In this document: positions 34,106 to 63,992 of the stretch, one piece after another
Layout of the letters: each line of letters opens with the position of its first letter
Numbering within the stretch: the stretch's first letter is position 1
Source of the DNA: Streptomyces sp. NA04227
Lineage (GTDB): Bacteria > Actinomycetota > Actinomycetes > Streptomycetales > Streptomycetaceae
Direction of reading: 5' to 3'
Length of the DNA stretch: 64,000 nucleotides
Assembly (NCBI RefSeq): GCF_013364195.1
Contig: NZ_CP054918.1
Coordinates: 4,205,001 to 4,269,000, forward strand
Translations under genes and position numbers: made by a program
The notes under the pieces: model-generated
Database searches by the model: none
What the model saw: the letters and a program-made list of their open reading frames with translations, nothing else
Told to the model about the DNA's origin: nothing

Positions 34106-37100
34106 TCAGGCGTACTTGTCGACGATCTTCAGGATGCGCTTGTCGGAGACCGGATACGCGGTGCCGAGGGCGTGCGCGAAGTAGCTGACGCGCAGTTCCT
34201 GGAGCATCCAGCGGATCTCCTGGACCTCCTGCGGCGCGGGACGGCCCTGCGGGAGCTGTTCCAGGAGCCAGGCGTACTCGTCCTGGAGTTCGCGGACCTT
34301 GTCCATGCGGGTGGTGTCCCGCTGGGCGTTGGACGGCATCTGCTGGAGACGGCGGTCGGCGGCGACCAGGTACCGCATCAGGTGACCGAGCCGCCCGAGC
34401 CCCGCCTCGGTGACGAAGCCGGGGTGCACCAGGGCGTCCAGCTGGGCGCGCACATCGGCGACGTTGTCCTTGAGCGCGGGCGAGGTCACCGTCTTCAGGC
34501 GCCGCTCGCAGGACTGCCAGGCGGCGAGCACCTGCTGCACCTGGCCGACCGTGTGCACGGTCGCGTCGACGATCTCGGCGCGGACCTTCTCGTACAGCTT
34601 GCGGTAGGACTCCTCGTCCCAGGCGGGGCCGCCGAAGTCCGCGATCAGCTTGTCCGCGGCGGCCGTGACACAGTCCGCGAAGAGCTGCGGGATGCCGCCG
34701 TGGGGGTTCGCCGAGAGGGCGAGCTTGGCGGCGTTGCTCAGCTTGTCCGAGGCGAACTTGGCCGGGTTGACGGGGATGTTGCGCAGGATGAGCCGCCGGG
34801 TGCCGCGCCACATCGCCCGCTGCTGCTCGGCCTCGGTGTCGAAGAGACGTACGGAGACGGTGTCGCCGTCGTCCACCAGCGCCGGATACGCCTTGACCGG
34901 CTGCCCGGCCCGCTTGGTCTCGAAGAGGCGGCTGAGCGTGCCCACCGTCCAGTCGGTGAGGCCCGAGCGCTCCACCGACTGCTCGCCGGAGCGTTCCGCG
35001 GTCGCGGCGGCCGCCCGGGAGATCGCCTTGCGCGCCTTGGGCCGCAGCTGGAGCTTGAGCGCCTCCAGGTCCTTGTCCTCGGCGAGTTGGCGGCGCCGTT
35101 CGTCGACGATGCGGAAGGTGATCCGCAGATGCTCGGGCACCCGGGACAGGTCGAAGTCGTCGCCCGTGACCGGCACCCCCACCATCCGCTTCAGCTCGCG
35201 CGCCAGCGTCACGGTGATCGGCTCCTGGAGGGGCTGGGCACGCTCCAGGAAGGCCTTGGCGTAGTTGGGCGCCGGGACGTAGTGACGGCGGATGGGCTTG
35301 GGCAGCGAGCGGATCAGCTCGGTGACGACCTCCTCGCGCAGGCCCGGGATCTGCCAGTCGAAGCCCTCGTCGGTGACCTGGTTGAGGACCTGCAGCGGAA
35401 TGTGCACGGTGACGCCGTCCGCGTCCGCACCCGGTTCGAACTGGTAGGTCACCCGGAACTTCAGCGCACCCTGGCGCCAACTGTCCGGATAATCCGCCTT
35501 GGTGACCGCCTGCGCCTGCTCGTTGATGAGCATCGAGCGCTCGAAGTCGAGGAGTTCGGGCTCCTCGGTCTTCTTCCGCTTCCACCAGGAGTCGAAGTGC
35601 GCCCCGGACACGACGTGTTCGGGCACCCGCTCGTCGTAGAAGTCGAACAGGGTCTCGTCGTCGACGAGGATGTCGCGGCGCCGCGCCCGGTGCTCCAACT
35701 CCTCGACCTCGGTGAGGAGTTTGCGGTTGTCCGCGAAGAACTTGTGGTGCGTGCGCCAGTCACCCTCGACCAGGGCGTGCCGGATGAACAGCTCGCGGCT
35801 GACCTCCGGGTCGATCCGGCCGTAGTTGACCTTGCGCTGCGCGACGATCGGCACCCCGTACAGCGTCACCTTCTCGTAGGCGAGCACCGCCGCCTGGTCC
35901 TTCTCCCAGTGCGGCTCGGAGTAGGTGTGCTTGAGCAGATGCCCGGCCAGCGGCTCGATCCACTCCGGTTCGATACGGGCGTTGACGCGCGCCCACAGCC
36001 GCGACGTCTCCACCAGCTCCGCCGACATGAGGAACCGCGGCGGCTTCTTGAACAGCGCCGAACCCGGGAACACCGCGAACTTCGCGCCACGCGCCCCGAG
36101 ATACTCGTTCCGCCCGCCACGGCCCTTCTCGCCCTCGCCGCCGCGAGCGGGCTTCGCGTCCTTGCTCTCCTTGACGTCCTTCATACCGACGTGCGACAGC
36201 AGACCCGCGAGCAGCGAGATGTGGATCTGCTGGTCACCGGAGTCGTCCTCGGCGATCGTCAGGCCCATCTGCTTTGCCACGGTACGCAGTTGGGTGTAGA
36301 TGTCCTGCCACTCGCGGATGCGCAGATAGTTCAGGAACTCGCTCTTGCACATCCGGCGGAACGCCGATGACGACAGCGCCTTCTGCTGCTCGCGCACATA
36401 CCGCCACAGGTTGATGTACGCGAGGAAGTCGCTCGTCTCGTCCTTGAACCGGGCGTGCTGCTGATCGGCCTGCGCCTGCTTCTCGGTGGGGCGTTCGCGC
36501 GGGTCCTGGATCGACAACGCGGCCGCGATCACCATGACTTCACGGACACAGCCGTTGCGGTCCGCCTCCAGCACCATTCGCGCAAGGCGCGGGTCCACCG
36601 GCAACTGGGCCAGTTTCCGCCCCATTTGGGTGAGGCGTTTGCGTACGTCCTTCTCGCTGGGGTTCAACGCCCCCAGTTCCTGAAGGAGTTGGACGCCGTC
36701 GCGGATGTTGCGGTGGTCGGGCGGGTCGATGAAGGGGAACTTCTCGATCTCGCCGAGCCCGGCCGCGGTCATCTGCAGGATGACGGAGGCCAGGTTCGTA
36801 CGCAGGATCTCGGCGTCGGTGAACTCCGGCCGCGCCAGGAAGTCGTCCTCCGAGTACAGCCGGATGCAGATACCGTCCGAGGTACGGCCGCAACGCCCCT
36901 TGCGCTGATTGGCACTTGCCTGACTGACCGGCTCGATCGGCAGCCGCTGCACCTTGGTGCGGTGGCTGTAGCGGGAGATACGGGCGGTGCCCGGGTCGAT
37001 CACGTACTTGATGCCGGGGACGGTCAGCGAGGTCTCGGCGACGTTCGTGGCCAGCACGATGCGCCGCCCCTGATGCGCCTGGAACACCCGGTGCTGCTCG

Positions 37101-38140
37101 GCGTGCGACAGCCGCGCGTAGAGCGGCAGGATCTCGGTGGCACCCGGCATGCCCTGGGTGTGCCGGTACTTCTTCTCCAGCGCGTCCGCGGTGTCGCGGA
37201 TCTCGCGCTCACCGGACAGGAAGACCAGGATGTCGCCGCGCGGCTCGCGCGAGAGCTCGTCCACCGCGTCCACGATCGCGGTGATCTGGTCCCGGTCCGA
37301 CTCGGCGGAGTCCTCCTCGAGCAGCGGCCGGTAGCGCACCTCCACCGGATACGTCCGCCCGCTCACCTCGACGATCGGCGCGGCCCCGAAGTGCCGCGAG
37401 AAACGCTCCGGATCGATGGTCGCCGAGGTGATGACCACCTTCAGGTCCGGGCGGCGCGGCAGCAGCTGCGCCAGATAACCCAGCAGGAAGTCGATGTTCA
37501 GGGAACGCTCGTGCGCCTCGTCGATGATGATCGTGTCGTAGGCGCGCAGCTCCCGGTCGGTCTGGATCTCGGCGAGCAGGATGCCGTCCGTCATCAGCTT
37601 CACGAAGGTCGAACCGCCGACCTGGTCGGTGAACCGCACCTTCCAGCCGACGGCCTCACCCAGCGGCGAGTCCAGCTCCTGCGCCACCCGCTCGGCGACC
37701 GTACGGGCCGCCAGCCTGCGCGGCTGCGTGTGCCCGATCATGCCGCGCACACCCCGGCCCAGCTCCAGACAGATCTTCGGGATCTGCGTGGTCTTACCGG
37801 AACCGGTCTCACCCGCGACGATCACGACCTGGTGGTCGCGTATCGCCGCGAGGATCTCGTCCTTCTTCTGGCTGACCGGAAGCTGCTCGGGATACGAGAC
37901 GGCCGGCACCCGGCCCGCCCGCAGGGCGAGCCGCTCCTCGGCGGCGGCGGCCTCCGCCCCGATCTCCGCGAGCACGGCGGACCGCGCCTCGGGCTTACGG
38001 ATCCTGCGCGCACCCTCCAGCCTGCGGCCGAGCCGGTTGGCGTCGCGCAGCGACAGAGCGGAGAGGCGGTCGGAGAGAGCGGCGAAGTCGCCCTGCGGGG
38101 CGGTGCCCGAGGCGGAGGCGGGGGCGGGCTGCGTAGACAT
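34106..38140 (-). CDS. hrpA: ATP-dependent RNA helicase HrpA
   Basis: 1344-residue DEAH-box helicase that acts on RNA, in other bacteria on stalled ribosomes. Walker A GETGSGKTTQ near residue 110, TQPRRLAA, IIDEAHERS near 205, ITSATIDPERFSRHFG, VFLSGEREI and the motif VI QRKGRCGRTSDGICIRLY; then the winged-helix/HA2 region and the long HrpA-specific DUF3418 C-terminus (KAYPALVDDGDTVSVRLF). Full length. GTG/ATG region: ATG 38140 with GGGG 6 nt upstream. Transcribed toward the tRNA-Asp. Confidence 0.96.
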   Translation of the reverse strand: MSTQPAPASASGTAPQGDFAALSDRLSALSLRDANRLGRRLEGARRIRKPEARSAVLAEIGAEAAAAEERLALRAGRVPAVSYPEQLPVSQKKDEILAAIRDHQVVIVAGETGSGKTTQIPKICLELGRGVRGMIGHTQPRRLAARTVAERVAQELDSPLGEAVGWKVRFTDQVGGSTFVKLMTDGILLAEIQTDRELRAYDTIIIDEAHERSLNIDFLLGYLAQLLPRRPDLKVVITSATIDPERFSRHFGAAPIVEVSGRTYPVEVRYRPLLEEDSAESDRDQITAIVDAVDELSREPRGDILVFLSGEREIRDTADALEKKYRHTQGMPGATEILPLYARLSHAEQHRVFQAHQGRRIVLATNVAETSLTVPGIKYVIDPGTARISRYSHRTKVQRLPIEPVSQASANQRKGRCGRTSDGICIRLYSEDDFLARPEFTDAEILRTNLASVILQMTAAGLGEIEKFPFIDPPDHRNIRDGVQLLQELGALNPSEKDVRKRLTQMGRKLAQLPVDPRLARMVLEADRNGCVREVMVIAAALSIQDPRERPTEKQAQADQQHARFKDETSDFLAYINLWRYVREQQKALSSSAFRRMCKSEFLNYLRIREWQDIYTQLRTVAKQMGLTIAEDDSGDQQIHISLLAGLLSHVGMKDVKESKDAKPARGGEGEKGRGGRNEYLGARGAKFAVFPGSALFKKPPRFLMSAELVETSRLWARVNARIEPEWIEPLAGHLLKHTYSEPHWEKDQAAVLAYEKVTLYGVPIVAQRKVNYGRIDPEVSRELFIRHALVEGDWRTHHKFFADNRKLLTEVEELEHRARRRDILVDDETLFDFYDERVPEHVVSGAHFDSWWKRKKTEEPELLDFERSMLINEQAQAVTKADYPDSWRQGALKFRVTYQFEPGADADGVTVHIPLQVLNQVTDEGFDWQIPGLREEVVTELIRSLPKPIRRHYVPAPNYAKAFLERAQPLQEPITVTLARELKRMVGVPVTGDDFDLSRVPEHLRITFRIVDERRRQLAEDKDLEALKLQLRPKARKAISRAAAATAERSGEQSVERSGLTDWTVGTLSRLFETKRAGQPVKAYPALVDDGDTVSVRLFDTEAEQQRAMWRGTRRLILRNIPVNPAKFASDKLSNAAKLALSANPHGGIPQLFADCVTAAADKLIADFGGPAWDEESYRKLYEKVRAEIVDATVHTVGQVQQVLAAWQSCERRLKTVTSPALKDNVADVRAQLDALVHPGFVTEAGLGRLGHLMRYLVAADRRLQQMPSNAQRDTTRMDKVRELQDEYAWLLEQLPQGRPAPQEVQEIRWMLQELRVSYFAHALGTAYPVSDKRILKIVDKYA

Positions 38141-39686: not shown

Positions 39687-40424
39687 ATGTCTCGCAGTGC
39701 TCGTACGTCCCGTTCGCTCGGCTTACTGGCCGCCTCGGCCCTGATCGCCCTGCCCGTCGGGGTGGGGCTCGCGGCCTTGCCCGCGTCCGCGGCCGAACCC
39801 ACGGCCACGGCGGTCGCCGACGACGGCGGCCACTCGGTCACGTACACGGCCGGGGCGCAGCAGTACAACGAGGTGGTGATCACCGAGGCCAAGGGCACGG
39901 AGTTCACCATCGACGACACCGTGCCGATCACGGCCGGCACCGGATGCGTGCACCCCGACAAGACCGACCAGACCAAGGTCGTGTGCACCCTGACCGAGTT
40001 CGGCGACTACTGGGTCCGCATCCATGTCGACCTCGGTGACTACAAGGACGAGTTGTCCATGCACGCTGGCAACGAGAACGTCATCCACGGCGGCTCCGGC
40101 AACGACACCCTCACCGGCGACGGCAACGACATGCTCTACGGCGACGACGGTGACGACACCCTCACCGGCGGCACCCAGCTCGGCGGCAACGGCGCCGACC
40201 TGCTCTCGGCCCCGAACTACAGCGCCGACGGCGGCTACGGCAACGACACCCTCGTGGGCACGGACGACGCCGACACCCTTTACGGCGGCCCCGACCACGA
40301 CATGCTGATCGGCCGCGCGGGCGACGACGTGCTGTACGGCAACAGCGGCAACGACACCATCTACGGCGGTGGCGGCAACGACACCATCTCGGGCGGTCCG
40401 GGGACCAACGAGATCCACCAGTAG
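39687..40424 (+). CDS. secreted RTX-type calcium-binding repeat protein
   Basis: 245 residues. A Sec signal peptide (SRSLGLLAASALIALPVGVGLAALPASA, cut before AEP) is followed by a ~90-residue beta-rich domain and then nonapeptide repeats GGSGNDTLTGDGNDMLYG, GGPDHDMLIGRAGDDVLYG, GNSGNDTIYGGGGNDTISGG that form a calcium-binding beta-roll. There is no transport signal of type I secretion, so it is exported by Sec and folds on extracellular calcium. AGGGGGG precedes ATG 39687. Function unknown; surface or matrix protein possible. Confidence 0.87.
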   Translation: MSRSARTSRSLGLLAASALIALPVGVGLAALPASAAEPTATAVADDGGHSVTYTAGAQQYNEVVITEAKGTEFTIDDTVPITAGTGCVHPDKTDQTKVVCTLTEFGDYWVRIHVDLGDYKDELSMHAGNENVIHGGSGNDTLTGDGNDMLYGDDGDDTLTGGTQLGGNGADLLSAPNYSADGGYGNDTLVGTDDADTLYGGPDHDMLIGRAGDDVLYGNSGNDTIYGGGGNDTISGGPGTNEIHQ

Positions 40425-40501
40425 GGGCGCACGGCTCGGCGTCGTCGAGTCATCGGTAACGAAAGCGGTCGCAGGTACGAAAGCGGCTCCAGGTACGGAA
40501 G

Positions 40502-40539
40502 CGGCCCCACCGATGGATGGTCTTTCTTCGGTGGGGCCG
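40502..40539 (+). terminator. hairpin terminator after the RTX gene
   Basis: Perfect 12-bp stem CGGCCCCACCGA/TCGGTGGGGCCG, 14-nt loop, 78 bp after the RTX stop. Confidence 0.7.
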
Positions 40540-40581
40540 TGCCGGGTGCCTTGTTCGGGCGTACGTTGGCGTACCGGTATG

Positions 40582-40615
40582 AAAAAGGCCCCCTCCGAGA
40601 ATCTTCGGAGGGGGC
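40582..40615 (-). terminator. terminator of the tRNA-Asp/tRNA-Phe pair
   Basis: On the minus strand, 11-bp stem GCCCCCTCCGA/TCGGAGGGGGC with a 6-nt loop, then CTTTTTC. 22 nt after tRNA-Phe. Confidence 0.9.
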
Positions 40616-40637
40616 GTTCTGCCTGTTCAGGCTGCTG

Positions 40638-40711
40638 TGGCTGGGGCCGGGGTCGAACCGGCGACCTTCCGCTTTTCAGGCGGACGCTCGTACCAACTGA
40701 GCTACCCAGCC
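40638..40711 (-). tRNA. tRNA-Phe (GAA)
   Basis: Acceptor GGCTGGG/CCCAGCC, anticodon stem TCCGC/GCGGA with loop CTGAAAA, T loop GTTCGAC. No encoded CCA. 38 nt after tRNA-Asp copy 2 in the direction of transcription. Confidence 0.96.
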
Positions 40712-40749
40712 ATCCGCTCGGAGAGCGGGAGTGATCCGAGGGATCACAG

Positions 40750-40824
40750 CGGTCCTGACGGGATTTGAACCCGCGGCCTCCACCTTGACAGGGTGGCGAG
40801 CACTCCAAACTGCTCCACAGGACC
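40750..40824 (-). tRNA. tRNA-Asp (GTC), copy 2
   Basis: Same 75-nt sequence as 33867-33941. Cotranscribed with tRNA-Phe. Confidence 0.96.
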
Positions 40825-41319
40825 AGGCTTTTGCGTGGTGCGCGGGATAAGTCTCGCACATCCTCTCGCGTGTCCCCAACGGGATTCTCGCCGTCTCCGC
40901 ACGCTCACCGGGCAGCCGGAAGGTGGGGGATTCGCAGATTCCTGGAGGGAGATCACACAAGCCCGCCACCCTTCTTCCGGAAGCTCCGCCTTGCTCCGAG
41001 AAGCCCTTGAGCAAGGCCTTCATCGGTGTGAGGTGGTGCTCCGTCAGCTCGGGTGACGTCGCTGAATGAGCGTATCAGAACCACGGGGGTGCTCCGAAAA
41101 CGTCCATGTGGGGAGGGTGGGAGGGGAGGGCGCGTGCGGGGTGGGTGGTCGGCTCCGGGAGCGCAAGTTGTTGTCCCCGGGCTGTGGATAACTGCCCGAC
41201 CGTGACTGCCTGTGGAAAACCTCGGGTGAGGTCCGTCGCCGTGCCAGACTCGCAGTGCCTTGATCACAGGGCGCCGGGCCCGGGGAGCGGGCGCGGCCGG
41301 GGGGGAAGGGGCTGGGGGA
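40825..41319. other. gene-free region upstream of the small exported protein
   Basis: 495 bp without a supported gene. It holds the tRNA-Asp promoter (on the minus strand) and, further right, the upstream region of the gene at 41320. No strong stem or repeat seen. Confidence 0.35.
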
Positions 41320-41790
41320 GTGAAACCGAGGATACGAGGGACCTTGATCGCGGTCGCGGTGGTGGCCGCCGCGATCGGGGTCACGGAGTGCGGCAAGGCG
41401 GTTCGGGGCGACGAGGAGCCTCCGCGAGCGAAGAAGGAAGTACAGCGAGATGTGCGGCAGGTGATCGAGGACGCGGGGCTTTCGCCCGTGGACTCCTCGT
41501 ATGTGGCGACCATGCACAGCGGGGGCTCGGCGCCTCGGAAGGAGTGTTGGATCGATGCCGAACGGTCGTTGGCCGCGGCGGTACCCGCGAAGGAGGACCT
41601 GGGCGCGGTGGTCGCGGTCGCCGAGCGGCACGGCTGGCGGGCGGGGAAGCGGCAGAAACTCCGAGGCGAAAGCGATCTTGAGTTCGTCGAGCTGAAGAAG
41701 TCGGGCTGGACACTCATCTTCTCGCGGTTCCTGTCCCAGGACCGCTTCGGGGGTTCCCTCCACTTCTCCGCCAGCCGCGACGACTGCTGA
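41320..41790 (+). CDS. small exported or membrane-anchored protein of unknown function
   Basis: 156 residues. GTG 41320 with AAGGGG about 8 nt upstream. The N-terminus KPRIRGTLIAVAVVAAAIGVTECGK is a signal peptide or membrane anchor; the Cys context (VTEC) does not fit a lipobox. The mature part has a predicted alpha/beta pattern (VIEDAGLSPVDSSYVATMHS, CWIDAERSLAAAVPAKEDLGAVVAVAERHGWRAGKR, GWTLIFSRFLSQ). No family recognised. Confidence 0.72.
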   Translation: MKPRIRGTLIAVAVVAAAIGVTECGKAVRGDEEPPRAKKEVQRDVRQVIEDAGLSPVDSSYVATMHSGGSAPRKECWIDAERSLAAAVPAKEDLGAVVAVAERHGWRAGKRQKLRGESDLEFVELKKSGWTLIFSRFLSQDRFGGSLHFSASRDDC

Positions 41791-41877
41791 GGGGGCGGTG
41801 GTTGGCGTCGGCCGGAGCGGAAAACGCTCGAAGCCCGTCACCTGGGAAGGCGAACGGGCTTCGGGAAAAGAACGATG

Positions 41878-41950
41878 TGCCCCCAACGGGATTCGAACCC
41901 GTGCTACCGCCTTGAAAGGGCGGCGTCCTAGGCCGCTAGACGATGAGGGC
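41878..41950 (-). tRNA. tRNA-Glu (TTC)
   Basis: Acceptor GCCCTCA/TGGGGGC, anticodon stem CCGCC/GGCGG with loop CTTTCAA, T loop GTTCGAA. No encoded CCA. It marks the left edge of the accessory NRPS locus. Confidence 0.95.
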
Positions 41951-42112
41951 TATCGGCCCACCTGGGCGCTGCGGTGCAGCGCGTCGGGGACGTGAGAAGC
42001 ATATGGGATGCGAGGAGGGATCGCCAAAACGATTGTCGGGCGGAGCTGGCAGCAACGACCGACCACTGCCGGCACCGGGTGACGGCCACGGCCACGGCCA
42101 GGCCACGGCCAC

Positions 42113-42158
42113 GCCTCCCGCACCGACCCGTCCCACAGGGCGGCCCGGTGCGGGAGGC
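42113..42158 (-). terminator. hairpin terminator of the NRPS-monooxygenase operon
   Basis: Perfect 12-bp stem GCCTCCCGCACC/GGTGCGGGAGGC, 9 bp beyond the monooxygenase stop. The tract just beyond it has GGCCAC repeated (42083-42112). Confidence 0.72.
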
Positions 42159-42166
42159 GCCGGAGC

Positions 42167-43390
42167 TCAGCTGGTCGCCACCGGCTTCCCCGTCTGCTGC
42201 TCACCCTTGTCCGACCCCTGCTGCTCCCTGATGGGGAAGGCCAGGGAGTCCTCCAGCATCTTGATCAGGCTGGCGCGGGGCAGGAAGCGGAAGAAGGCGT
42301 CGCGCAGGGGGCGGAGGATGCCCGTGGCCTGCTCGAAGGAGCTGAGCCGACGGGAGGCGGCGACCATGCCGCTGGTGCGTTCGCGGCGCTCGTCCTCGTA
42401 GCGGCGCAGGGCGGCCGGGAGGTCGGTGGCCGATTCGAGGCAGCGGCCGAGGACGACGGCGTCCTCGATGGCCATGCCGGAGCCCTGGCCGAGGCTGGTG
42501 AGCATCGGGTGGGCGGCGTCGCCGAGGAGGGTGACCGGGCCCTTGCCCCAGCGGTCCAGGAAGGCGCGGTCGCGGGAGGGCACGGCGATGATCGACTCCT
42601 CGGGAGTGGAGCTGATCGCCTGCCGCACCTCGTCGGCCCAGCCCTCGTAGGAGGCGAGGACGTCGTCCTTGGTGCCCTGCCAGTCGTGGGAGCGCTCGGT
42701 GGGCATGTTCTCGGTGCCCCACCAGTAGAGGGTGCCGCCGCCCATGTCGACCAGACCGAAGCGCTTGCCGCTGCCCCAGAAGTGCACGACGGAGCCGGGC
42801 GGGAAGTTCGGGTGCGAGAAGGGCACCAGGCCCAGGTAGCAGACGTAGCCGCTGTCCTGGGACTCCTCCGGGGCGGGGCCGACGAGTTGGCGGCGGATGA
42901 CGGAGTGGAAGCCGTCCGCGCCGATGAGTACGTCGCCGTGCGCTTCGGTGCCGTCCTCGAAGGCGACCCTGACGCCGTCCTCTTCGGACTCGAAGCCGGT
43001 GGCCACGGCGCCGGTGCGGATCGGGATGCCCTCGGCGGCGTCGAGCAGGGCCTTCTGCAGGGCGGGGCGGGTGATCAGGACGCTCGGTATGCCGATCCGG
43101 TCGATGATCTCCGGGAAGGGGAACTCCCGGATCGGCCGTCCGGCGGCGGTGCGGACGTGGTACGACTCGAGCGTCTGGCCGTGCGCGGCCAGGTCGATGC
43201 CGAGGCCGAGCGAGTCCAGGGCGCCGATGGCGTTGCTCATGACGGACAGGCCGGAACCGGCCGCCCGCAGTTCCCCGGCCCGCTCGTGGACCTCGACGTC
43301 GAGTCCGGCGCGACGCAGCGAGATCGCCGCCGTCAGTCCGCCGATTCCCGCGCCGATAACGAGGGCCTTCTTGGGTGCGTGCTGTGTCAC
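42167..43390 (-). CDS. FAD-dependent monooxygenase, PxaB/LgnD-like candidate
   Basis: 407-residue group A flavoprotein monooxygenase (UbiH/salicylate hydroxylase fold). N-terminal GAGIGGLTAAISLRRAGLDVEVHERA binds FAD, GADGFHSVIRRQL is the DG motif and GDAAHPMLTSLGQGSGMAIEDAVVL the second FAD site. GTG 43390 lies 1 bp after the NRPS stop, so the two are surely one operon. Next to a Ser/Pro-type bimodular NRPS, the best reading is the Baeyer-Villiger enzyme that turns an indolizidine-like NRPS product into a pyrrolizidine, as PxaB, LgnD and BhmK do. This assignment rests on context; plain hydroxylation is the alternative. Confidence 0.85.
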   Translation of the reverse strand: MTQHAPKKALVIGAGIGGLTAAISLRRAGLDVEVHERAGELRAAGSGLSVMSNAIGALDSLGLGIDLAAHGQTLESYHVRTAAGRPIREFPFPEIIDRIGIPSVLITRPALQKALLDAAEGIPIRTGAVATGFESEEDGVRVAFEDGTEAHGDVLIGADGFHSVIRRQLVGPAPEESQDSGYVCYLGLVPFSHPNFPPGSVVHFWGSGKRFGLVDMGGGTLYWWGTENMPTERSHDWQGTKDDVLASYEGWADEVRQAISSTPEESIIAVPSRDRAFLDRWGKGPVTLLGDAAHPMLTSLGQGSGMAIEDAVVLGRCLESATDLPAALRRYEDERRERTSGMVAASRRLSSFEQATGILRPLRDAFFRFLPRASLIKMLEDSLAFPIREQQGSDKGEQQTGKPVATS

Positions 43391-43391
43391 T

Positions 43392-46300
43392 TCAGTGTCC
43401 GATCAGTTCGGTGACGGCCTTGACCAGGTGGGCGATGTGCGGTTCTTCCATGATCGTGAGGTGGTCCCCGGGCACGTCCACCACGGTGAGTTCACCCGCG
43501 GTGAGTGCGCCCCAGCCGTTGGCCGGGTCCTGGTGCAGGGACTCGGCGTGGCTGTGCATGGCGTCGAGGACCGCGGGCAGCGGCTCGGAGGCGTGCAGGA
43601 GTACCAGGTCCTGGTCGACCACGTCGGGCCGGTAGGCGGCGGTGGCCCGCCAGTTGGCCTCGTAGACGCGGAAGAGGCGGCGTACGACGGCACCGGTGCT
43701 GCCCGCGGGGAGGACTCCCTCGTCCACCGCCAGCCGGGCGATGAACTCGAACTTATCCTCCAGGGTGTCCAGTTCGGCGGGGATCACCTCCATCGGGGAG
43801 TCGCCGCCACGCTGGAGCCACAGCAGTTCCCAGAAGAACCACCCGAGCAGGGCGTCGTCGTCGGTCCTCTTGTGGGTGCCGAACTTCAGCGCCACGGTGT
43901 CGAGCAGGATGACGCGTTCGGCCTTTTCCCCCGCGGCCCGCAGCTGCCGGGCCATCTCGAAGGCGACGAAGCCGCCGAAGGACCAGCCGCCGATGGTGTA
44001 CGGGCCGCTCGGCTGTGCGCGGCGCATGGCGGCGACGTAGGAGGCGGCGATGTCCTCCAGGGTGGTGAGGGGTTCGGTGCCGTGGTCGCCGCCTGCCGCC
44101 TGGAAGGCGTAGAACGGCTGGTCCTCGTGGAGGTACTTGGCGAAGGGGACGTAGCACAGGACGTTGCCGCCCATGGGGTGGACGAGGAAGAGCGGGCGCC
44201 GTGAGCCCTTGGTGCGCAGCGGCACCAGTGGGTCGAAGGCGGTGGTGGCCCCGCCGGAGCGCAGTCGCCGCGCCAGTTGCGCGACGGTCGGCGCGGACAC
44301 GAACTCGGACAGCGGCAGGGCGGCGCCGTAGCGCTGTTCGAGGATGACGACCAGGCGCATGGCGGTGAGCGAGGTGCAGCCGAGTTCGAAGATGTTGTCG
44401 TGGACGCCGAGTGAGGGCAGTTCGAGCAGGTCGCAGATGACCTCGGCGAGGGTGCGTTCGTAGGCGTCCCGGGGCGCGGTGGCCTCGGTCGCGGCGGCCG
44501 TGGTCAGGGGGAACCGGCGCAGGGCGGCGTCGTCGCGTTTGCCGCTCGGGGTGAGCGGGAGCGCGTCCAGCCACTCGAAGTGCGAGGGCACCAGGTAGTC
44601 CGGCAGGACGGTCCGCAGCTGCTTTCCGAGCAGGGTCAGGTCCGCGCCCGCCGGGTCGCCGACCAGGAAGGCGGCGAGGAAGGAGTCGTTGCTCTCGCGC
44701 CGCCGGGCGACGACGGCCGCCTCCGAGAGGCCGGGGTGCATGGCCGCGAAGCGGGTCACGGCCAGCTCCACCTCGGCCGGTTCGACCCGGTAGCCGCGCA
44801 CCTTGACCTGGGAGTCGGCCCGGCCGAGGCAGACCACGTCGCCGCCGGGCAGGGCGAAGGCCAGGTCGCCGGTGCGGTACAGGCGGCCGAGCGGATGCTC
44901 CACGAAGCGTTCCGCGGTGAGCTCCGGCTGGCCGATGTACCCGTCGGCGAGGCAGTCGCCCGCGAGGTACAGCTCGCCCTTGACCCCGGTCGGCACCGGC
45001 CGCAGCTCCTCGTCGAGGATCAGCAGCCGCGAGCCGTCGACGGCGGTGCCGATCGGCGGCAGCGCCGGGAAGAGGGCCGGGTCGCCGCTCATCGTGTACG
45101 AGGCGACCACGTGCGACTCGGTGGGCCCGTACTGGTTCTCCAGGATCACCCCGGGCGATGCCGCGCACAGGGCGCGGATTTCGTCGGTGACGCGCAGCTG
45201 CTCGCCGGAGGAGATGACGGCCTTCAGGCCGCTCGGCGCCAGGTCCAGGGCGGCGGCGGTCTCGGCCAGTTGCTGGAGGGCCACGTAGGGGAGGTAGATC
45301 CGCTGGACGCGTTCGCGCTCCAGCAGGCGCAGCAGTCCGGGCAGGTCGCGCCGTTGCTCCTCGGTCAGTACGTGCAGGGTGCCGCCGCTGCCGAGAGTGG
45401 CGAAGATCTCCTGGAAGGAGACATCGAAGCTGAGCGGGGCGAACTGCGCGGTGGCGCCGCCGGGTACGCCGCTCGGGATGCCGTTCTGCCAGTCGATCAG
45501 CTGCGACAGCGAACGGTGCGGCATCGCCACGCCCTTGGGGCGGCCGGTCGAGCCCGAGGTGAACAGCACGTACGCGGTGTCCGTGGGCGAGATCGCCGGG
45601 AGCGGCCCGCTCGCCTCGGCGCCGCCGAGGGCCTCCTCGGCGAGGAGTACGGGCGCGCCCTGGCCGAGCGGCGCGATGTGCGCGGCATGGGCGATGACGC
45701 TGTGCGGCCGGGCCTGTTCGACCATGGCGGCGAGCCGTTCCGCGGGGTAGGCGACGTCGAGCGGGACGGCGGCGGCGCCCGCCTTCAGCACGCCGAGGGT
45801 GACGGCGACCGTCTCGGGCGAGCGCTCCATGGCGATGCCGACCCGGTCCCCGGAGCGCGCGCCGCGCGCCAGCAGGGCGGCGGCCACCCGGTCGGAGGCA
45901 CGGCCCAGTTCGGCGTAGGTCCAGTGCTCCTCGCCGAAGGCGAGGGCGCGGGCCTCGGGAGTACGGGCGGTCTGGGCGGCGACGGCGGTGACGACGTCCT
46001 GGGGCTCGGCCCCGGTCCGGGTGGTGAGGATGTCCTGGGGCTCGGCCCCGGCGGTCGCCCGGCCCGGCTGCCCGTCGGTCGGGGTCAGGAAGCCGAAGTC
46101 CGGTGCCTCGTCGGCGTGTTGGACCAGTCGCTCCAGGATCGCCGTGAAGCGGTCCCCGTACAGCTCGGCCTGCGCGTGCGTGAAGGTCTCGCCGTGGTGG
46201 TCCATCCGCAGCCGCAGGGCGCCGTCGCGGGGGTCGACCACGGCGTTGACCAGGAGCTGGAAGTTGGTCTCCTCCCAGGTGCGGAAGTCGAGCAGCCGCA

Positions 46301-49300
46301 CTCCGGGCAGTGCGAGCACGGCGGTGAGCTGGCGGAAGTGGACGTAGTTGAAGGCGGTGTCCACCACGGTCCGGCCGAGGTCCTCCTGCACGGCGCTCAG
46401 CGGGTAGCGCTTGTGCGGGTGGCTCTCGCGCTCCAGCCGGAACGCCTCGCGGGCCACCTCCGCCCAGCTCGACCGGGCGGTGTTCAGCCGCAGCGGCAGG
46501 GTGTTGAGGAACAGCCCGGCGGTGCGGTCGGCGTCCTGGACCTCGGGGCGGCCGTGGGCCACCAGGCCGGTGGTGACGTCCTCGATGCCGGTGAAGTGCC
46601 GCAGCGTCAGGCAGTGCGCCGCGAACAGCACCGACTTGAGCGGCAGCGCGCGCTCGTTGGCGAACTCCCGTGCCGCGTGGACCAGTTCGTCGGGGATGCC
46701 GATCAGCCGGGTGATCTGCTCCGGTGGCCGGACGTCCTCGTGGGGGCGGAAGCCCGCGAGGCGCAGCCGCGGGGCCCCGGCGAGCAGCTCGCGCCAGAAC
46801 TCCCGGGTGGGCGCCGACTCCAGGGCCTGGCGCTCGGCGCGTACGTGGTGCGCGGCACTGGGCGCGGCCGGGTCCGTGACGGCGGCCACGTCGAGGCCGC
46901 GGGCGTGCAGATGGTCCTGGAGGAGTTCCTGGATGAGGTGGGCGACGCTGCCGCCGTCGAGGATCGCGTGGTGGAAGCTCAGCACCAGCTCTACGGAGTC
47001 CGCCAGTACGTACACCTGGAAGCGGTGGAGCGGAGCCCGGGCGAAGTCGTAGTGGTGGAAGCGGCGTTCGTCGACGTGGGCGCGGATCTCGGCACGGGCC
47101 GCCTCCTCGTCACGGTCGCGCAGGTCGGTGATGCCGAGGCCGTCGGTGACCTCGGTGTGGACGATCTGCAGCGGCTCGGAGTGGCCGCCGAGGTCGAAGG
47201 AGGAGCGCAGCACGGGGTGGCGGGCCACCAGCCGGTCGAAGGCGGTACGGAAGGCGGACTCGTCCCAGTCGAGGGCGAGGGAGTACTGGAAGACGTCGTG
47301 GTAGACGGCCGAGTCCTCCTGGGCCCTGCTGTGGTAGAGCAGTCCGAGCTGGAGCCGGGTCAGCGGATGGGCGTCCTCGCGGCCCTCCAGGCGGCCCCGG
47401 TCCACTGAGGAGATCAGCGTGAAGGGCGCGAGCGGCGCGGAGTCCGCCGCGTCCGCCGGGGCGGTGGCGGTGGAGCGGGCGGCCACCTCGGCGACGGTCG
47501 GGTGGCGCACCAGGTCGCCGAGGGAGAAGTGCACTCCGGCCTGCTCGGCGCGGGCACGGATGCGCAGCATGGTGAGGGAGTCGCCGCCGAGCGCGTAGTA
47601 GTCGTCGTGCACGCCGACCCGTTCGACCTCAAGGACCTCGGCCCAGATTCCGGCCAGCAGCGCCTCGGTCGCATCGCGCGGAGCGCCGTCGCCGCGGCCG
47701 CTCGCCGCCACCGGGGCGGGCAGGGCGCGGCGGTCGGCCTTGCCGTTGGGGGTGAGCGGTACGGCGTCGATCCGGACGAAGTACGCCGGGAGCATGAACT
47801 CCGGCAGTACGGAGGCGAGTTCGGCGCGCAGCCGGGCCGGGTCGAGGGTGTCCGCGCTGACGTAGTAGCCGGTGAGGAAGGTGCCGCGGGTCGGTGACCG
47901 GTGGTCGGTGACCACCGCGTCGCGCACCCCGGGCACCGAGGCGAGGCGGTTCTGGACCTCGCCCAGCTCGACCCGGTTGCCGCGGATCTTCACCTGGCCG
48001 TCGATGCGGCCCAGGTACTCCAGGTCGCCGTCGGCGAGCCTGCGGGCCAGGTCGCCGGTGCGGTACAGTCGCCCGCTCCCGGCGAAGGGGTCGGGCCCGA
48101 AGCGCTCCTCGGTCAGCTCGGGACGGCCCAGATAGCCGCGGGCCACCTGGACGCCGCCGATGCACAACTCCCCCGGTACGCCCGGGGGTTGGAGGTTGCC
48201 CTGCGGGTCGAGCACGTAGAGGCGGGTGTTGTCGACCGGGCGGCCGATGGGCACCCGGCGCACCGGCTGCGAGGGGTCGGTCGGGCAGTCGTGGTACGAG
48301 ACGTCGACGGCCGCCTCGGTGGGCCCGTACAGGTTGACCAACCGGGGCGCCGGGCCCGGTCCGTCGGCGAAGACGCGGTTGAACTGCTCCACGCGGGCCG
48401 GGGGAAGCGCCTCTCCGCTGCAGAACACCTGGCGCAGCGAGGCCACTTGCGCGCGGGCCTCGGCGGAGGCGTCAAGGAGGTCGAGGAAGGGCGCCAGCAT
48501 CGAGGGGACGAAGTGCACGGTGGTGACGGCCTGTTCGGCGATGGCCCGCGCGATGTCGCCCGGGTCGCGCTGGGCGCCGGGCGGCAGCAGGGTGAGGCTC
48601 GCGCCCTCGATGGCCCACCAGAACAGCTCCCAGACGGAGACGTCGAAGGAGATCGGCGTCTTCTGGAGCAGGGTGTCGCCTTCCCCGACCGGATAGCGCC
48701 GCTGCATCCAGGCGAGCCGGTTGACGACCGAGTGGTGCTCGACCATCACGCCCTTGGGGCGGCCCGTGGAACCGGAGGTGTAGATGACGTACGCCAGGTC
48801 GGAGCCGGTGGCCAGCGGCTCCAGTGGCCCGTCCGGGCCGGTCAGGCAGTCCTCGACCGCAAGCACGGACACCTCGCCGACCTCGCCGACGTCGTCGGCC
48901 TCGGTTTCCGGCAGTACGGTCCCCCGGTCGGTGAGCGCGACGGGGGCGCCGCTGTCGCGCAGCACGAAGCGGATGCGGTCGGCGGGGTAGCCGGGGTCGA
49001 CGGGGACGTAGGCGCCGCCCGCCTTGAGTACGCCGAGCAGGGCGACGATCAGCCGCGGGGAGCGGTCCATCAGGACGGCCACCCGGCTGCCGACGCCGAC
49101 GCCGCGGGCGCGCAGCGCGCGGGCCACCTGGTTGGCCGCGGCGTCGAGTTCGGCGTAGCTGAGGGCGTCGCCCCGGGCGCCGGTGACGGCGGTCCGGTGC
49201 GGGGTGCGGGCGGCCTGCTCGGCCACCAGCTGGTGCAGGGTCTTCTCGGCCGGGTACGCGACGGGGGCGTCCTGGCCGCCGTGGACCAGTGCGGCGTATT

Positions 49301-50645
49301 CCGCCTCGTCCAGCATCGGCACGGTCAGCGCGGGGCGTTCGGGTTGCTCGACGCCGTTGCGGAGCAGGTTGAGCAGGTGCGCGGAGACCGATGCGATGGG
49401 CAGGTCCTCGTCGAAGATCTCCGTGGCGTAGTCGAAGTCGACGCGCAGGTCGCCCCCGTCGCCGAAGGCCCAGATGACCACGGCCAGCGCGGAGCCCTCG
49501 TGCAGCGGCGCCATGAACACCGTCTCGCGGTCCAGTCCCTCGGGCGCCTCGCGGGGCGGGTAGCGCAGGTAGGACAGCGTGACGTCGAAGAGCCTCCGGG
49601 AACCGGCCTGGTCGGGTGCGAGGGAACCGAGCACCTCGCCGAGCGGCAGCCGCTCGTGTTGGTGCAGCCGGTCCGTGTCGCGGCGCACTTCGGCGGCCAG
49701 TTCGGCCAGGGTCGCCTCGGGCGGCACGGCGACCCGCAGCGGCAGGTTGTTGGCGCGCTGCCCGGCGATGCTCAGCTGGGCGGCACCCCGCCGGTTGAGG
49801 AAGGGCACCCCGAGCACGACCTCCGGACGGGAGTGGACCCGGGCCAGGTAGGTGGCGAAGACGGCGGCGAGGTAGGCGAAGGGCGAGCTGCCCTGGGCGC
49901 GGACCCGGCGGACCAACTCGCCGTCCACGGTGAAGGAGTGCCGGGCCCGGCGGGCCCCGCCGGGGTGCTCCGCGCCGCTTCGCGCGAACAGGGCCGGGCT
50001 CGCCCCGGCGAGGTAGTCCCGGTGGAAGGCACGGTCGCGCGCGTGGTCCGCGGAGGCGCGGTAGGCGGCGTCGTCCTCGACCAGGGTGCGCACGGAAGGG
50101 GGCGCGGGCGGCTCGGCGGGGGCGGATCCCGCCGCCGCCGTGAGCCGTGCGTACTCCTCCCACAGCTGGCGGTCGATCTCGTTGCCGGACCAGCCGTCCA
50201 TGAGGAGGTGGTGGGTCTTCAGGTGCAGATGGAGTACGGAAGGGCTCTCGCGCAGCAGGGTGGCGACGACGAGACGCGTACGGCGCGGGGGGAAGGGGCG
50301 GACGAAGGACTCCTCCCGCCAGGCGGCACAGGCGGCCGCGGGGTCCTCGGCCCCCGACAGGTCGAGGTGTTCGACCCACGGTTCGGAGTCCGCCGTCTCT
50401 ATCCACTGGTAAGGAATTCCGTCTTCTTCATCGAAACGCAATGAGAATGCATCATTCCGCTTGAGGGTGCGCGTCAGGCTTTCCGTCAGCGCTGCCACGT
50501 CGACGGCCCCGGAAAGTCGCTGGTACAGGACACCGTTGAACTGTGGATCGCCGACGGCTGCCGCCTCGGCGGTCCAGATATCGTGCTGGTAGGCAGACAG
50601 AGGTATGCGCCGGGAAGCGGGCACGGGCCTTCCTTCAGTAGACAA
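43392..50645 (-). CDS. bimodular NRPS C-A(Ser)-T-C-A(Pro-like)-T-TE, PxaA/LgnB-like
   Basis: 2417 residues. Domain order with landmarks: C1 (HHLLMDG near 142), A1 (YTSGSTGRPKG near 620), T1 (GGDSL near 1018), C2 (HHAILDG near 1221), A2 (FTSGSTGRPKG near 1692), T2 (ELGCTSL near 2086, Cys for the usual Gly), TE (GWSFGG near 2219, late His in GDHL near 2394). The A1 pocket residues read DVWHFSLVDK, the serine code of EntF. The A2 pocket reads DVQYISQVVK, two changes from the proline code DVQYIAHVVK. The leading C domain implies acyl-CoA or carrier-bound acyl initiation. This organisation is that of pyrrolizidine alkaloid synthetases. No MbtH or carrier activating enzyme is adjacent. ATG 50645 follows GGAAGG. 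Confidence 0.93.
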   Translation of the reverse strand: MSTEGRPVPASRRIPLSAYQHDIWTAEAAAVGDPQFNGVLYQRLSGAVDVAALTESLTRTLKRNDAFSLRFDEEDGIPYQWIETADSEPWVEHLDLSGAEDPAAACAAWREESFVRPFPPRRTRLVVATLLRESPSVLHLHLKTHHLLMDGWSGNEIDRQLWEEYARLTAAAGSAPAEPPAPPSVRTLVEDDAAYRASADHARDRAFHRDYLAGASPALFARSGAEHPGGARRARHSFTVDGELVRRVRAQGSSPFAYLAAVFATYLARVHSRPEVVLGVPFLNRRGAAQLSIAGQRANNLPLRVAVPPEATLAELAAEVRRDTDRLHQHERLPLGEVLGSLAPDQAGSRRLFDVTLSYLRYPPREAPEGLDRETVFMAPLHEGSALAVVIWAFGDGGDLRVDFDYATEIFDEDLPIASVSAHLLNLLRNGVEQPERPALTVPMLDEAEYAALVHGGQDAPVAYPAEKTLHQLVAEQAARTPHRTAVTGARGDALSYAELDAAANQVARALRARGVGVGSRVAVLMDRSPRLIVALLGVLKAGGAYVPVDPGYPADRIRFVLRDSGAPVALTDRGTVLPETEADDVGEVGEVSVLAVEDCLTGPDGPLEPLATGSDLAYVIYTSGSTGRPKGVMVEHHSVVNRLAWMQRRYPVGEGDTLLQKTPISFDVSVWELFWWAIEGASLTLLPPGAQRDPGDIARAIAEQAVTTVHFVPSMLAPFLDLLDASAEARAQVASLRQVFCSGEALPPARVEQFNRVFADGPGPAPRLVNLYGPTEAAVDVSYHDCPTDPSQPVRRVPIGRPVDNTRLYVLDPQGNLQPPGVPGELCIGGVQVARGYLGRPELTEERFGPDPFAGSGRLYRTGDLARRLADGDLEYLGRIDGQVKIRGNRVELGEVQNRLASVPGVRDAVVTDHRSPTRGTFLTGYYVSADTLDPARLRAELASVLPEFMLPAYFVRIDAVPLTPNGKADRRALPAPVAASGRGDGAPRDATEALLAGIWAEVLEVERVGVHDDYYALGGDSLTMLRIRARAEQAGVHFSLGDLVRHPTVAEVAARSTATAPADAADSAPLAPFTLISSVDRGRLEGREDAHPLTRLQLGLLYHSRAQEDSAVYHDVFQYSLALDWDESAFRTAFDRLVARHPVLRSSFDLGGHSEPLQIVHTEVTDGLGITDLRDRDEEAARAEIRAHVDERRFHHYDFARAPLHRFQVYVLADSVELVLSFHHAILDGGSVAHLIQELLQDHLHARGLDVAAVTDPAAPSAAHHVRAERQALESAPTREFWRELLAGAPRLRLAGFRPHEDVRPPEQITRLIGIPDELVHAAREFANERALPLKSVLFAAHCLTLRHFTGIEDVTTGLVAHGRPEVQDADRTAGLFLNTLPLRLNTARSSWAEVAREAFRLERESHPHKRYPLSAVQEDLGRTVVDTAFNYVHFRQLTAVLALPGVRLLDFRTWEETNFQLLVNAVVDPRDGALRLRMDHHGETFTHAQAELYGDRFTAILERLVQHADEAPDFGFLTPTDGQPGRATAGAEPQDILTTRTGAEPQDVVTAVAAQTARTPEARALAFGEEHWTYAELGRASDRVAAALLARGARSGDRVGIAMERSPETVAVTLGVLKAGAAAVPLDVAYPAERLAAMVEQARPHSVIAHAAHIAPLGQGAPVLLAEEALGGAEASGPLPAISPTDTAYVLFTSGSTGRPKGVAMPHRSLSQLIDWQNGIPSGVPGGATAQFAPLSFDVSFQEIFATLGSGGTLHVLTEEQRRDLPGLLRLLERERVQRIYLPYVALQQLAETAAALDLAPSGLKAVISSGEQLRVTDEIRALCAASPGVILENQYGPTESHVVASYTMSGDPALFPALPPIGTAVDGSRLLILDEELRPVPTGVKGELYLAGDCLADGYIGQPELTAERFVEHPLGRLYRTGDLAFALPGGDVVCLGRADSQVKVRGYRVEPAEVELAVTRFAAMHPGLSEAAVVARRRESNDSFLAAFLVGDPAGADLTLLGKQLRTVLPDYLVPSHFEWLDALPLTPSGKRDDAALRRFPLTTAAATEATAPRDAYERTLAEVICDLLELPSLGVHDNIFELGCTSLTAMRLVVILEQRYGAALPLSEFVSAPTVAQLARRLRSGGATTAFDPLVPLRTKGSRRPLFLVHPMGGNVLCYVPFAKYLHEDQPFYAFQAAGGDHGTEPLTTLEDIAASYVAAMRRAQPSGPYTIGGWSFGGFVAFEMARQLRAAGEKAERVILLDTVALKFGTHKRTDDDALLGWFFWELLWLQRGGDSPMEVIPAELDTLEDKFEFIARLAVDEGVLPAGSTGAVVRRLFRVYEANWRATAAYRPDVVDQDLVLLHASEPLPAVLDAMHSHAESLHQDPANGWGALTAGELTVVDVPGDHLTIMEEPHIAHLVKAVTELIGH

Positions 50646-56718: not shown

Positions 56719-58041
56719 TCAGACCAGATGCACATCCGGCACGTAAAGAATCCACTTGCCGCCGCTCGCCCGGAACGCCGACTCCTTGGACATGATCTCC
56801 TCGGCGTGGTTCCAGGCGAAGAGCAGGGCGTAGTCCGGGTACGGGGACGCGAAGCGGTCCGGGGTGACCACGGGGAGGTGGGAGCCGGGGGTGAGCTTGC
56901 CCTGTTTGGCGGGGGTGGTGTCGGTGACGAAGGGGATCAGGTCGGGGCCGATACCGCAGTAGTTGGCGACGGTGGCGCTCTTGGCGGTGGCGCCGTAGGC
57001 GACCACGCTGTGGCCCTCTTCCTTCAACTTGACCAACAGCGCGATGAGTTGGTCGCGGATCGCGGCGACGCGGGTGGCGAAGGCGTCCAGCGTGGCGGGC
57101 TCGGTCAGGCCGCGTTCGGTCTCCTCGGCGAGGAGCGCGCCGACGGCCTCGGCGACCGGGCGGGCGCCCTTGCGGGCCAGGGTGTAGCGGACTTCGCCGC
57201 CGTGCACGGTGAGCCGTTCGACGTCGACGAGCTCGAAGCCGTGGCGGGCGGCCAGGGCGGCGACCGAGCGGGCGGTGAAGAAGTAGAAGTGCTCGTCGTA
57301 GATCTGGTCGAAGGAGGCCCGCTCGACGATGTCGCCGAGGTAGGGGTCCTCGAAGACGAACACGCCGCCCCCGGTGAGCACCGCGTCCAGGCCTCGGAAG
57401 ATCGAGTCCAAGTACGGGATGTGGCACAGGGTGTTGGCCGCGTAGACGACATCGGCGCGGCCGTCCTCGGCGGCGATCTCGCGGGCGGTCGACTCCTCGA
57501 AGAAGGCGGTGCGCACCCGGATGCCCTTGCCGCGCGCCACCTCGCCGACTCCGGCGGAGGGCTCCACGCCGAGGTGGCGCACCCCGGCCTCGTGCACGGT
57601 GCGCAGCATCACCCCGTCGTTGCAGCCGAGTTCGACGAGGAAGGAGTCCTCGCCGGTGAGTTCACAGTCCAGGAAGTGCCGGGCGGTACGGGTGAAGTGC
57701 TCGCGCATCACCGAGGAACCCGAGGAGTGGTACGGGTAGTCGGCGTGGAACATCTTCTCCCGCGGTACCTCCTCCAGGAGTTGGACCATGGTGCACTCGG
57801 TGCAGTGGCCGACCGCGAGCCGGAAGAAGAACTCTTCGTCGGTGGCGTCCGGGGCGCGGAAGGCATCCGAGACCGGCTGCCGTCCGAGGTCGAGGAACTC
57901 GCGGAGCGCGCCGCCGCAGATACGGCAAGGCGGCGTGGTGGCAGGGTAGTTGGCGGGCGCGGGCGCCGGGGCGGTGTCGGGGCTCGCGGTGGTCCCGCTC
58001 TCGTCTGTTGCGTTCGTCTCGGTCGCGTTCGTGTCGGTCAC
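56719..58041 (-). CDS. sugar C-methyltransferase (NovU/TylC3/EvaC type)
   Basis: 440-residue SAM-dependent enzyme that puts a methyl group on C-3 of a dTDP-4-keto-deoxysugar. N-terminal zinc finger CRICGG...CTEC, SAM motif VELGCNDGVMLRTVHEAG near 138, FEDPYLGDIVERASFDQIYDEHFYFF, and the C-terminal family block SVVAYGATAKSATVANYCGIGPDLIPFVTDTTPAKQGKLTPG are all characteristic. GTG 58041, 3 bp after the epimerase stop. The N-terminal 30 residues are a Thr/Ala/Pro-rich leader. Last gene of the operon. Confidence 0.92.
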   Translation of the reverse strand: MTDTNATETNATDESGTTASPDTAPAPAPANYPATTPPCRICGGALREFLDLGRQPVSDAFRAPDATDEEFFFRLAVGHCTECTMVQLLEEVPREKMFHADYPYHSSGSSVMREHFTRTARHFLDCELTGEDSFLVELGCNDGVMLRTVHEAGVRHLGVEPSAGVGEVARGKGIRVRTAFFEESTAREIAAEDGRADVVYAANTLCHIPYLDSIFRGLDAVLTGGGVFVFEDPYLGDIVERASFDQIYDEHFYFFTARSVAALAARHGFELVDVERLTVHGGEVRYTLARKGARPVAEAVGALLAEETERGLTEPATLDAFATRVAAIRDQLIALLVKLKEEGHSVVAYGATAKSATVANYCGIGPDLIPFVTDTTPAKQGKLTPGSHLPVVTPDRFASPYPDYALLFAWNHAEEIMSKESAFRASGGKWILYVPDVHLV

Positions 58042-58044
58042 GGT

Positions 58045-63794: not shown

Positions 63795-63963
63795 CTGCGT
63801 GTCCTTTCGTGCTCCGTGGGGGACCAGCGGTACGCACTCGCGACAAGCCGTAAATCGTGAATGGGCGGGCCTGGCCCGTGAATTGGGCGGCCTTGAACCG
63901 GCAGGCGCCGGACGCCGAGAATTTCCCCCGTCAATGCCATGCGAGAGGCATGTACGAGGAACA

Positions 63964-63992
63964 GGGTTAACGGGATTCCCGGGGCCTGTCAA
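63964..63992 (-). promoter_or_regulatory. candidate promoter of the sugar operon
   Basis: On the minus strand: perfect -35 TTGACA (63987-63992), 17-nt spacer, -10 TAACCC (63964-63969). Gives a ~165-nt leader before GTG 63794, with a small hairpin ATGCC/GGCAT (63936-63952) inside it. Confidence 0.55.

Follow-up and report, generated by a model that had tools for sequence, protein, structure and literature searches.

In one locus of Streptomyces sp. NA04227, the gene for a bimodular nonribosomal peptide synthetase (NRPS) adjoins one for a flavin adenine dinucleotide (FAD) monooxygenase. Both lie in the window, by which is meant the whole 64,000-nucleotide stretch that was analysed (contig NZ_CP054918.1, positions 4,205,001 to 4,269,000). 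Judged from the sequence, the two genes very probably form an operon whose product is a bicyclic alkaloid built from an acyl chain, Ser and Pro, of the pyrrolizixenamide, legonmycin and brabantamide kind. The gene pair itself, the domain order, the active-site residues, the letters of the adenylation pockets and the family placement carry this reading. Papers are cited below by their PMC numbers.

The Gene Pair and the Domain Order of the NRPS

Both genes are on the minus strand, with the NRPS gene (43392..50645) upstream and the gene of the monooxygenase, which is of the LgnC/PxaB type (42167..43390, 407 aa), following after one base. That base, at 43391, separates the NRPS stop codon from the GTG start of the monooxygenase, and the 1-bp spacing suggests a single operon. 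The NRPS has 2417 aa when counted from the first TTG, but the GTG at 50624, with GAAGG at 50636-50632 lying 7 nt upstream of it, is the likelier start. An open frame of 2417 codons with a G+C content at third codon positions (GC3) of 0.93 (0.93-0.95 for both frames), together with 119 listed relatives of identical seven-domain order, argues that the NRPS is no chance frame.

In a Pfam scan, the NRPS showed two condensation (C), two AMP-binding (adenylation, A), two carrier (T) and one thioesterase (TE) stretch, while the monooxygenase matched FAD_binding_3. The order is C1-A1-T1-C2-A2-T2-TE, a feature by which members of the Pxa, Bra, Lgn and Lga pathways are recognised. The motifs are intact throughout, namely HHLLMDG in C1, HHAILDG in C2, GWSFGG in the TE (43395..44225) and the carrier Ser in both T domains, of which T1 (47460..47684, residues 988-1062) has the core LGGDSLTM.

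Relatives of the NRPS were sought with residues 1060-2417, which matched at least 5266 proteins, 7980 candidates being scored; the best 120 were taken, and the 119 listed relatives are these without the window's own protein, P0123. They are 47-71% identical over the query, the best non-self match standing at 71%, and the seven-domain order is the same in all 119, with P0127 and P0153 being N-terminally short. Two listed proteins are longer: P0125 (locus L156; 2972 aa) has about 500 additional residues between C2 and A2, and P0175 (named Nocardia; 3505 aa), whose inserted stretch lies between A1 and T1, also has PF03007 as a precomputed domain.

An earlier note on this DNA had described two genes 1 bp apart with the order C-A-T-C-A-T-TE, without giving the strand, and had taken them for an NRPS and Baeyer-Villiger monooxygenase (BVMO) pair of the pyrrolizidine-alkaloid type. 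The spacing and order are borne out, and the 119 listed relatives are of the same bimodular type. It had also named three outcomes that would speak against it, these being best matches to other NRPS families, a C1 outside the acyl-starter C domains and a monooxygenase grouping with aromatic hydroxylases only; none of the three turned up.

The Monooxygenase

At E<=1e-40, the monooxygenase search gave at least 2156 proteins, 7999 candidates being scored, from which the best 120 were taken, again with the window's own included; the best non-self match is 76% identical. The protein contains GAGIGG (GxGxxG), YWWGTEN (YWW-x-T-x-N) and GDAAH. In LgnC, the BVMO of the legonmycin pathway, H200, Y219 and W221 are important by site-directed mutagenesis (PMC11457151), and H203, Y222 and W224 are their counterparts in the window, matched by motif context. 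H203 and Y222 occur in 119 of the 119 listed homologues, and position 224 is occupied by W in 114 of them and by F in the other 5.

A tree of 74 rows was built, with 26 less similar rows omitted and one of the 100 loci yielding no row. The window and 28 NRPS-linked homologues of LgnC type fall on one side of a branch and the 45 most similar of the other FAD enzymes on the other side, with a support of 100 in the approximate likelihood ratio test of the Shimodaira-Hasegawa kind (SH-aLRT), for a group that was preset by at least 44% identity and among rows that include no named PxaB, BraC or LgnC. The monooxygenase thus does not keep company with aromatic hydroxylases only. The linkage to an NRPS is independent of the identity-based grouping: an NRPS is nearby in 28 of the 28 grouped loci, and the other 72 loci gave no TE-domain match at E<=1e-8. 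Across 44 wide loci (8 + 20 + 16), some of them near-duplicates and some cut by contig ends, matches to C1, A1, C2, A2 and TE lie near the monooxygenase in every one. There are variants among them, in that the NRPS of L148 is divergent, L016 has intervening genes and the A1 match of L131 is a separate gene.

A survey of 392 genomes of the same genus, with four candidates scored per genome, detected the monooxygenase at E<=1e-90 in 36, counting the genome of the window itself. No second copy of the pathway was seen in the NA04227 genome, where the next-best FAD enzyme is 34% identical. Many related bacteria are already known to have this gene pair, and the locus seems to be one more ordinary instance of it. 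What is specific to the window is the minimal two-gene form, without a short-chain dehydrogenase/reductase (SDR) gene.

The Condensation Domains

C1 (49266..50624) is the least conserved domain of the NRPS, with at most 59% identity to the 119 listed relatives; the other domains of the nearest relative, P0124, are 70-76% identical to the window. Ranked against PDB structures, C1 is closest to 7c1k (2.2e-31) and 7c1h (3.8e-31), which we take to be starter C domains (RzmA). Txo1, EntF, Txo2 and ObiF1 come next, then 4jn3 (1.9e-19), presumably the CDA starter domain, and lower down surfactin synthetase subunit 3 (1.3e-11) and tyrocidine synthetase 3 (1.1e-6). This ranking, which is one in mixed company and not a subtype tree, and the N-terminal place of the domain fit an acyl-starter role.

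Trees of C1 and of C2-A2-T2-TE both place the window beside L118-L120 and L123, with a support of 82 for C1 and 99 for the rest. A swapped C1 domain is not indicated, as the two trees agree; low identity combined with concordant trees suggests that C1 is simply faster-evolving, and its terminal branch is 0.42 against a median of 0.23. The last residue of the C1 motif HHxxxDG is itself variable, with Ala and Gly each in 59 of the 119 listed relatives and no residue in the remaining one; it is Gly in the window but Ala in L118, L119, L120 and L123.

The closest PDB relatives of C2 (46086..47411) are, by ranking only, McyA (1e-77) and AmbE (1.5e-54), with PvdL next at 1e-30. McyA has a role in making a dehydroalanine residue, and C2 of the window is probably of the dehydrating type. 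A precedent is found in LgnD-C2, for which biochemical work demonstrated dehydration of acyl-Thr (PMC8748450).

The Proposed Pathway and Its End Product

The scheme proposed here is drawn from PMC11177316, PMC11457151, PMC8748450 and PMC11794875, with each chemical step modelled on the published work with PxaA/B, BraB/C and LgnA-D. C1 would take an activated acyl group and acylate the Ser loaded on T1 by A1, after which C2 would turn acyl-Ser on T1 into acyl-dehydroalanine and condense it with the Pro loaded by A2 on T2. Ring closure by the TE would release a [5+6] indolizidine, and Baeyer-Villiger insertion by the flavoprotein would convert this into a [5+7] oxazepine carbamate. Non-enzymatic hydrolysis, loss of CO2 and reclosure would then give a [5+5] N-acyl pyrrolizidine; alternatively, the carbamate may be kept or rearranged to a lipocyclocarbamate.

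Among the characterised systems, the pyrrolizixenamide pathway PxaA/PxaB of Xenorhabdus stockiae is like the window in pairing a bimodular C-A-T-C-A-T-TE NRPS with a BVMO, and differs in the phylum of its host. Its stand-in here is locus L014 of X. hominickii, from the genus of the pyrrolizixenamide producers, whose NRPS is 41% and whose BVMO is 50% identical to those of the window. The C1 of this stand-in is only 24% identical, and therefore the acyl group may well differ. Legonmycin LgnA-D (Streptomyces sp. MA37) offers an LgnC-type BVMO with the conserved His, Tyr and Trp, a second C domain that, as in the window, looks like the dehydrating ones, and Pro as its second residue. Unlike the window, in which A1 stands in cis and has a Ser code, the legonmycin pathway has A1 split off as LgnB and depends on LgnA for the transfer of Thr. 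Its line is a split A1-T0 protein plus a C-T-C-A-T-TE NRPS and not one bimodular protein, an arrangement that is absent from the window and is seen as split architecture in L131. The earlier note had picked the right family in naming its parallels, but LgnB and LgnD, which it gave as an NRPS and BVMO pair, are both NRPSs (PMC11457151). A further parallel, going by the published description, is the bohemamine/legoncarbamate lga cluster of Streptomyces sp. CT37, with the C-A-T-C-A-T-TE NRPS LgaD and the LgnC-like BVMO LgaE (PMC7820566); that cluster includes tailoring genes and is about 17.6 kb long, whereas the window has two genes.

Brabantamide BraB/BraC (Pseudomonas sp. SH-C52) has, by description, the same kind of NRPS and a BVMO that is homologous and passes through identical intermediates; it differs from the window in the rearrangement of the carbamate by BraC and in having a rhamnosylated chain. 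A variant within the pathway family, in which the same assembly line ends in a lipocyclocarbamate of the brabantamide type or in a stable [5+7] bicyclic carbamate, is a serious possibility though well short of an even chance. BraC and PxaB have a common intermediate, the product being set by the enzyme and the side chain (PMC11177316), and the carbamates clipibicyclene and legoncarbamate are assigned to the same pathway group (PMC11457151). The N-acylated pyrrolizidine of the earlier note accordingly stands as one possible end product of a kind of gene pair that also makes brabantamide-type lipocyclocarbamates and [5+7] carbamates. Against a glycosylated brabantamide-like product, no glycosyltransferase was found among the adjoining genes scanned, and the nearest one annotated, a family 2 enzyme at 62727-63992, lies more than 12 kb off in a separate group of sugar genes.

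The Adenylation Pockets and the Second Residue

Recomputation from the sequence returned the same pocket letters that the earlier note had given, DVWHFSLVDK for A1 (47691..49259, residues 463-985) and DVQYISQVVK for A2 (44481..45980), as well as the LGCTSL of T2. The A1 code is identical in 113 of the 119 listed relatives, and by code tables we take it to be a serine code.

The A2 code had been regarded as deviating from the textbook Pro code, DVQ..AHVV, and as hinting at a variant second building block. This does not hold up, since the type of code is family-wide. Residue 301 is Ser in 106, Cys in 11 and Ala in 2 of the 119 listed relatives, and residue 322 is Gln in 111 and His in 8, the complete code of the window recurring in four. 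In 28 wider loci (8 named genomes and 20 of the same genus), Ser301 is present in all 28 and Gln322 in 24. The Xenorhabdus locus L014, with the same domain order, has DVQYISQVIK, one letter away from the window, and L131 has DVQFVSQVVK. Ser301 with Gln322 is, on these comparisons, what the family mostly uses; to read it as a departure from the Pro code is misleading, and the code therefore gives no hint of a different second building block. A2 probably loads Pro.

A Pro analogue as second residue (azetidine-2-carboxylate, methylproline or pipecolate) is accordingly quite improbable, although the A2 of PxaA takes azetidine-2-carboxylate when supplied, so such domains are permissive (PMC11794875), and other A2 codes do exist in the family. 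One of these, DVQHCSHAAK, occurs in four of the 28 wider loci, L011, L012, L132 and L134; the monooxygenases of L012 and L132 are identical, and these two loci may come from a single strain. The code of the window is of the commonest family type, and no amino-acid-modifying enzyme is annotated among its flanking genes. Azetidomonamide, clipibicyclene and metaze share with the window a related alkaloid logic and a bimodular NRPS and are described as bicyclic carbamates, but they contain azetidine-2-carboxylate, unlike the product expected here. The metaze cluster adjoins clpP (PMC13386464); of four ClpP-family matches in the NA04227 genome none is in the window, and no azetidine-2-carboxylate synthase of the AzeJ type was recognised among the flanking genes scanned, a search that did not extend to the whole genome.

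A changed second residue is, by their codes, more plausible in the DVQHCSHAAK loci than in the window. These four loci carry an SDR, a flavin reductase, a PF08028 acyl-CoA-dehydrogenase-like and a PapA-like gene, and the flavin reductase and PF08028 genes recur in a fifth locus, L160, counted by its gene content. An assignment of the DVQHCSHAAK loci as bohemamine-like is not upheld, because this gene content has no clear match in the printed lga cluster.

The T2 domain (44241..44462, residues 2062-2135, core LGCTSLTA) has a Cys at residue 2090 that is found in the window only; at this site 71 of the 119 listed relatives have Gly and the other 48 have Ala. The altered carrier handling that the earlier note saw in it is unsupported: the site is Gly or Ala in every listed relative, and the carrier Ser (2092 in the window) is intact in all. 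The Cys supports no functional claim.

Genomic Context and the Missing Accessory Genes

The pair is flanked by hrpA (34106-38140) on one side and a metallopeptidase gene (PF06262, 51115-51465) on the other, these two being 13.0 kb apart. In 12 relatives, picked by a strong match to the metallopeptidase region, the distance between hrpA and the metallopeptidase gene is 0.65-4.5 kb in ten, hrpA being outside the stretch in the other two, and no NRPS or BVMO match is present in any of the 12 stretches; one of the 12 relatives, G004, has an NRPS and a BVMO at a different chromosomal place. Because the flanking genes are close together and without NRPS or BVMO in relatives, the pair looks like an insertion into a housekeeping region.

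In the four nearest kin, L118, L119, L120 and L123, an SDR gene (PF00106 in L123) directly follows the monooxygenase, and LysR, major facilitator superfamily (MFS), hydrolase and aldehyde-dehydrogenase-like genes lie around the pair. More widely, 25 of the 44 wide loci, L118-L127 among them, have an SDR gene no more than 5 kb from the monooxygenase and 19 do not; the accessible parts of the pathway papers cited here give no role for it. When eight accessory proteins were compared with the window by tblastn, nothing came below E 0.12, and no decayed remnant of the SDR or of other accessory genes was found around the pair. The best SDR in the NA04227 genome is 38% identical, and the aldehyde-dehydrogenase-like protein has a 58% homologue at another place in that genome, so the latter may not belong to the pathway.

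Two further readings bear on this absence. According to one, the lineage has been secondarily stripped, with the SDR, LysR, MFS and hydrolase genes lost and C1 diverged, and the pair releases a compound new to the family, such as a pyrrolizidine or a stable bicyclic carbamate, either one bearing a novel acyl chain, which other strains modify further with the SDR; this is speculative and on balance unlikely. According to the other, the pair is silent or decaying. The same four genes present in the nearest kin but missing here, the longish end branch of C1 and the odd Cys of T2 could be taken that way, but both frames are open with the GC3 given above, every motif is intact, 19 of the 44 related loci are likewise without an SDR within 5 kb, and most of the family's pathways are described as having two essential enzymes, an NRPS and a BVMO (PMC11457151, Fig. 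1 legend); this reading is very improbable.

Downstream of the monooxygenase by 1.55 kb, a terminator-like hairpin (40588..40615, minus strand) has 11 pairs followed by a T run, and it counts for little because three such sites were found in the region against 2.6 expected. Four tested open reading frames in 40425-42166 are without a Pfam match, and this stretch is, at a guess, non-coding. Near hrpA, 39687-40424 encodes a protein that looks secreted and contains RTX calcium-binding nonapeptide repeats (PF00353). At the right-hand end of the window, apart from the NRPS pair, deoxysugar-type genes occupy 56719-63992 and include a C-methyltransferase, a dTDP-4-dehydrorhamnose 3,5-epimerase, a DegT aminotransferase, an epimerase and the family 2 glycosyltransferase mentioned above.

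The Evidence Weighed

Several points weigh against the assignment of the pair to this alkaloid family. The printed motif YWWxTKN (PMC7820566) has a Lys where the window has Glu; the position is not invariant, being Lys in 92 and Arg in 19 of the 119 listed homologues, with a different residue or none in the remaining 8, and Ala in the Xenorhabdus locus L014. The PDB ranking of C1 is mixed, with Txo1, EntF, Txo2 and ObiF1 standing above the CDA domain. L014 and L131 are stand-ins, picked by genus or architecture, for the characterised PxaA, BraB and LgnD and for PxaB, BraC and LgnC. Finally, the pair in the window differs from the nearest kin in having no transporter, LysR regulator or SDR gene linked to it.

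An unrelated lipodipeptide NRPS that happens to adjoin an aromatic-ring hydroxylase of the HpxO or salicylate type is scarcely credible, for although the best NCBIfam match of the monooxygenase is HpxO, below threshold at 251.9 bits against a cut-off of 500, and its closest solved relative is the flavoprotein monooxygenase 3rp6, its place in the tree, the LgnC active-site residues and the presence of NRPS matches near it in all 44 wide loci speak against this.

Significance

With the assignment to an N-acylated Ser-Pro bicyclic alkaloid preferred, the locus is one more predicted producer among many, and its value is that, with only two genes, it offers a small test case for a pathway family that is already known. 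An A2 pocket with Ser301 and Gln322 is usual in this family and should not be taken to signal a new building block. The locus also draws attention to the SDR gene, which accompanies the monooxygenase in more than half of the related loci and is missing here.

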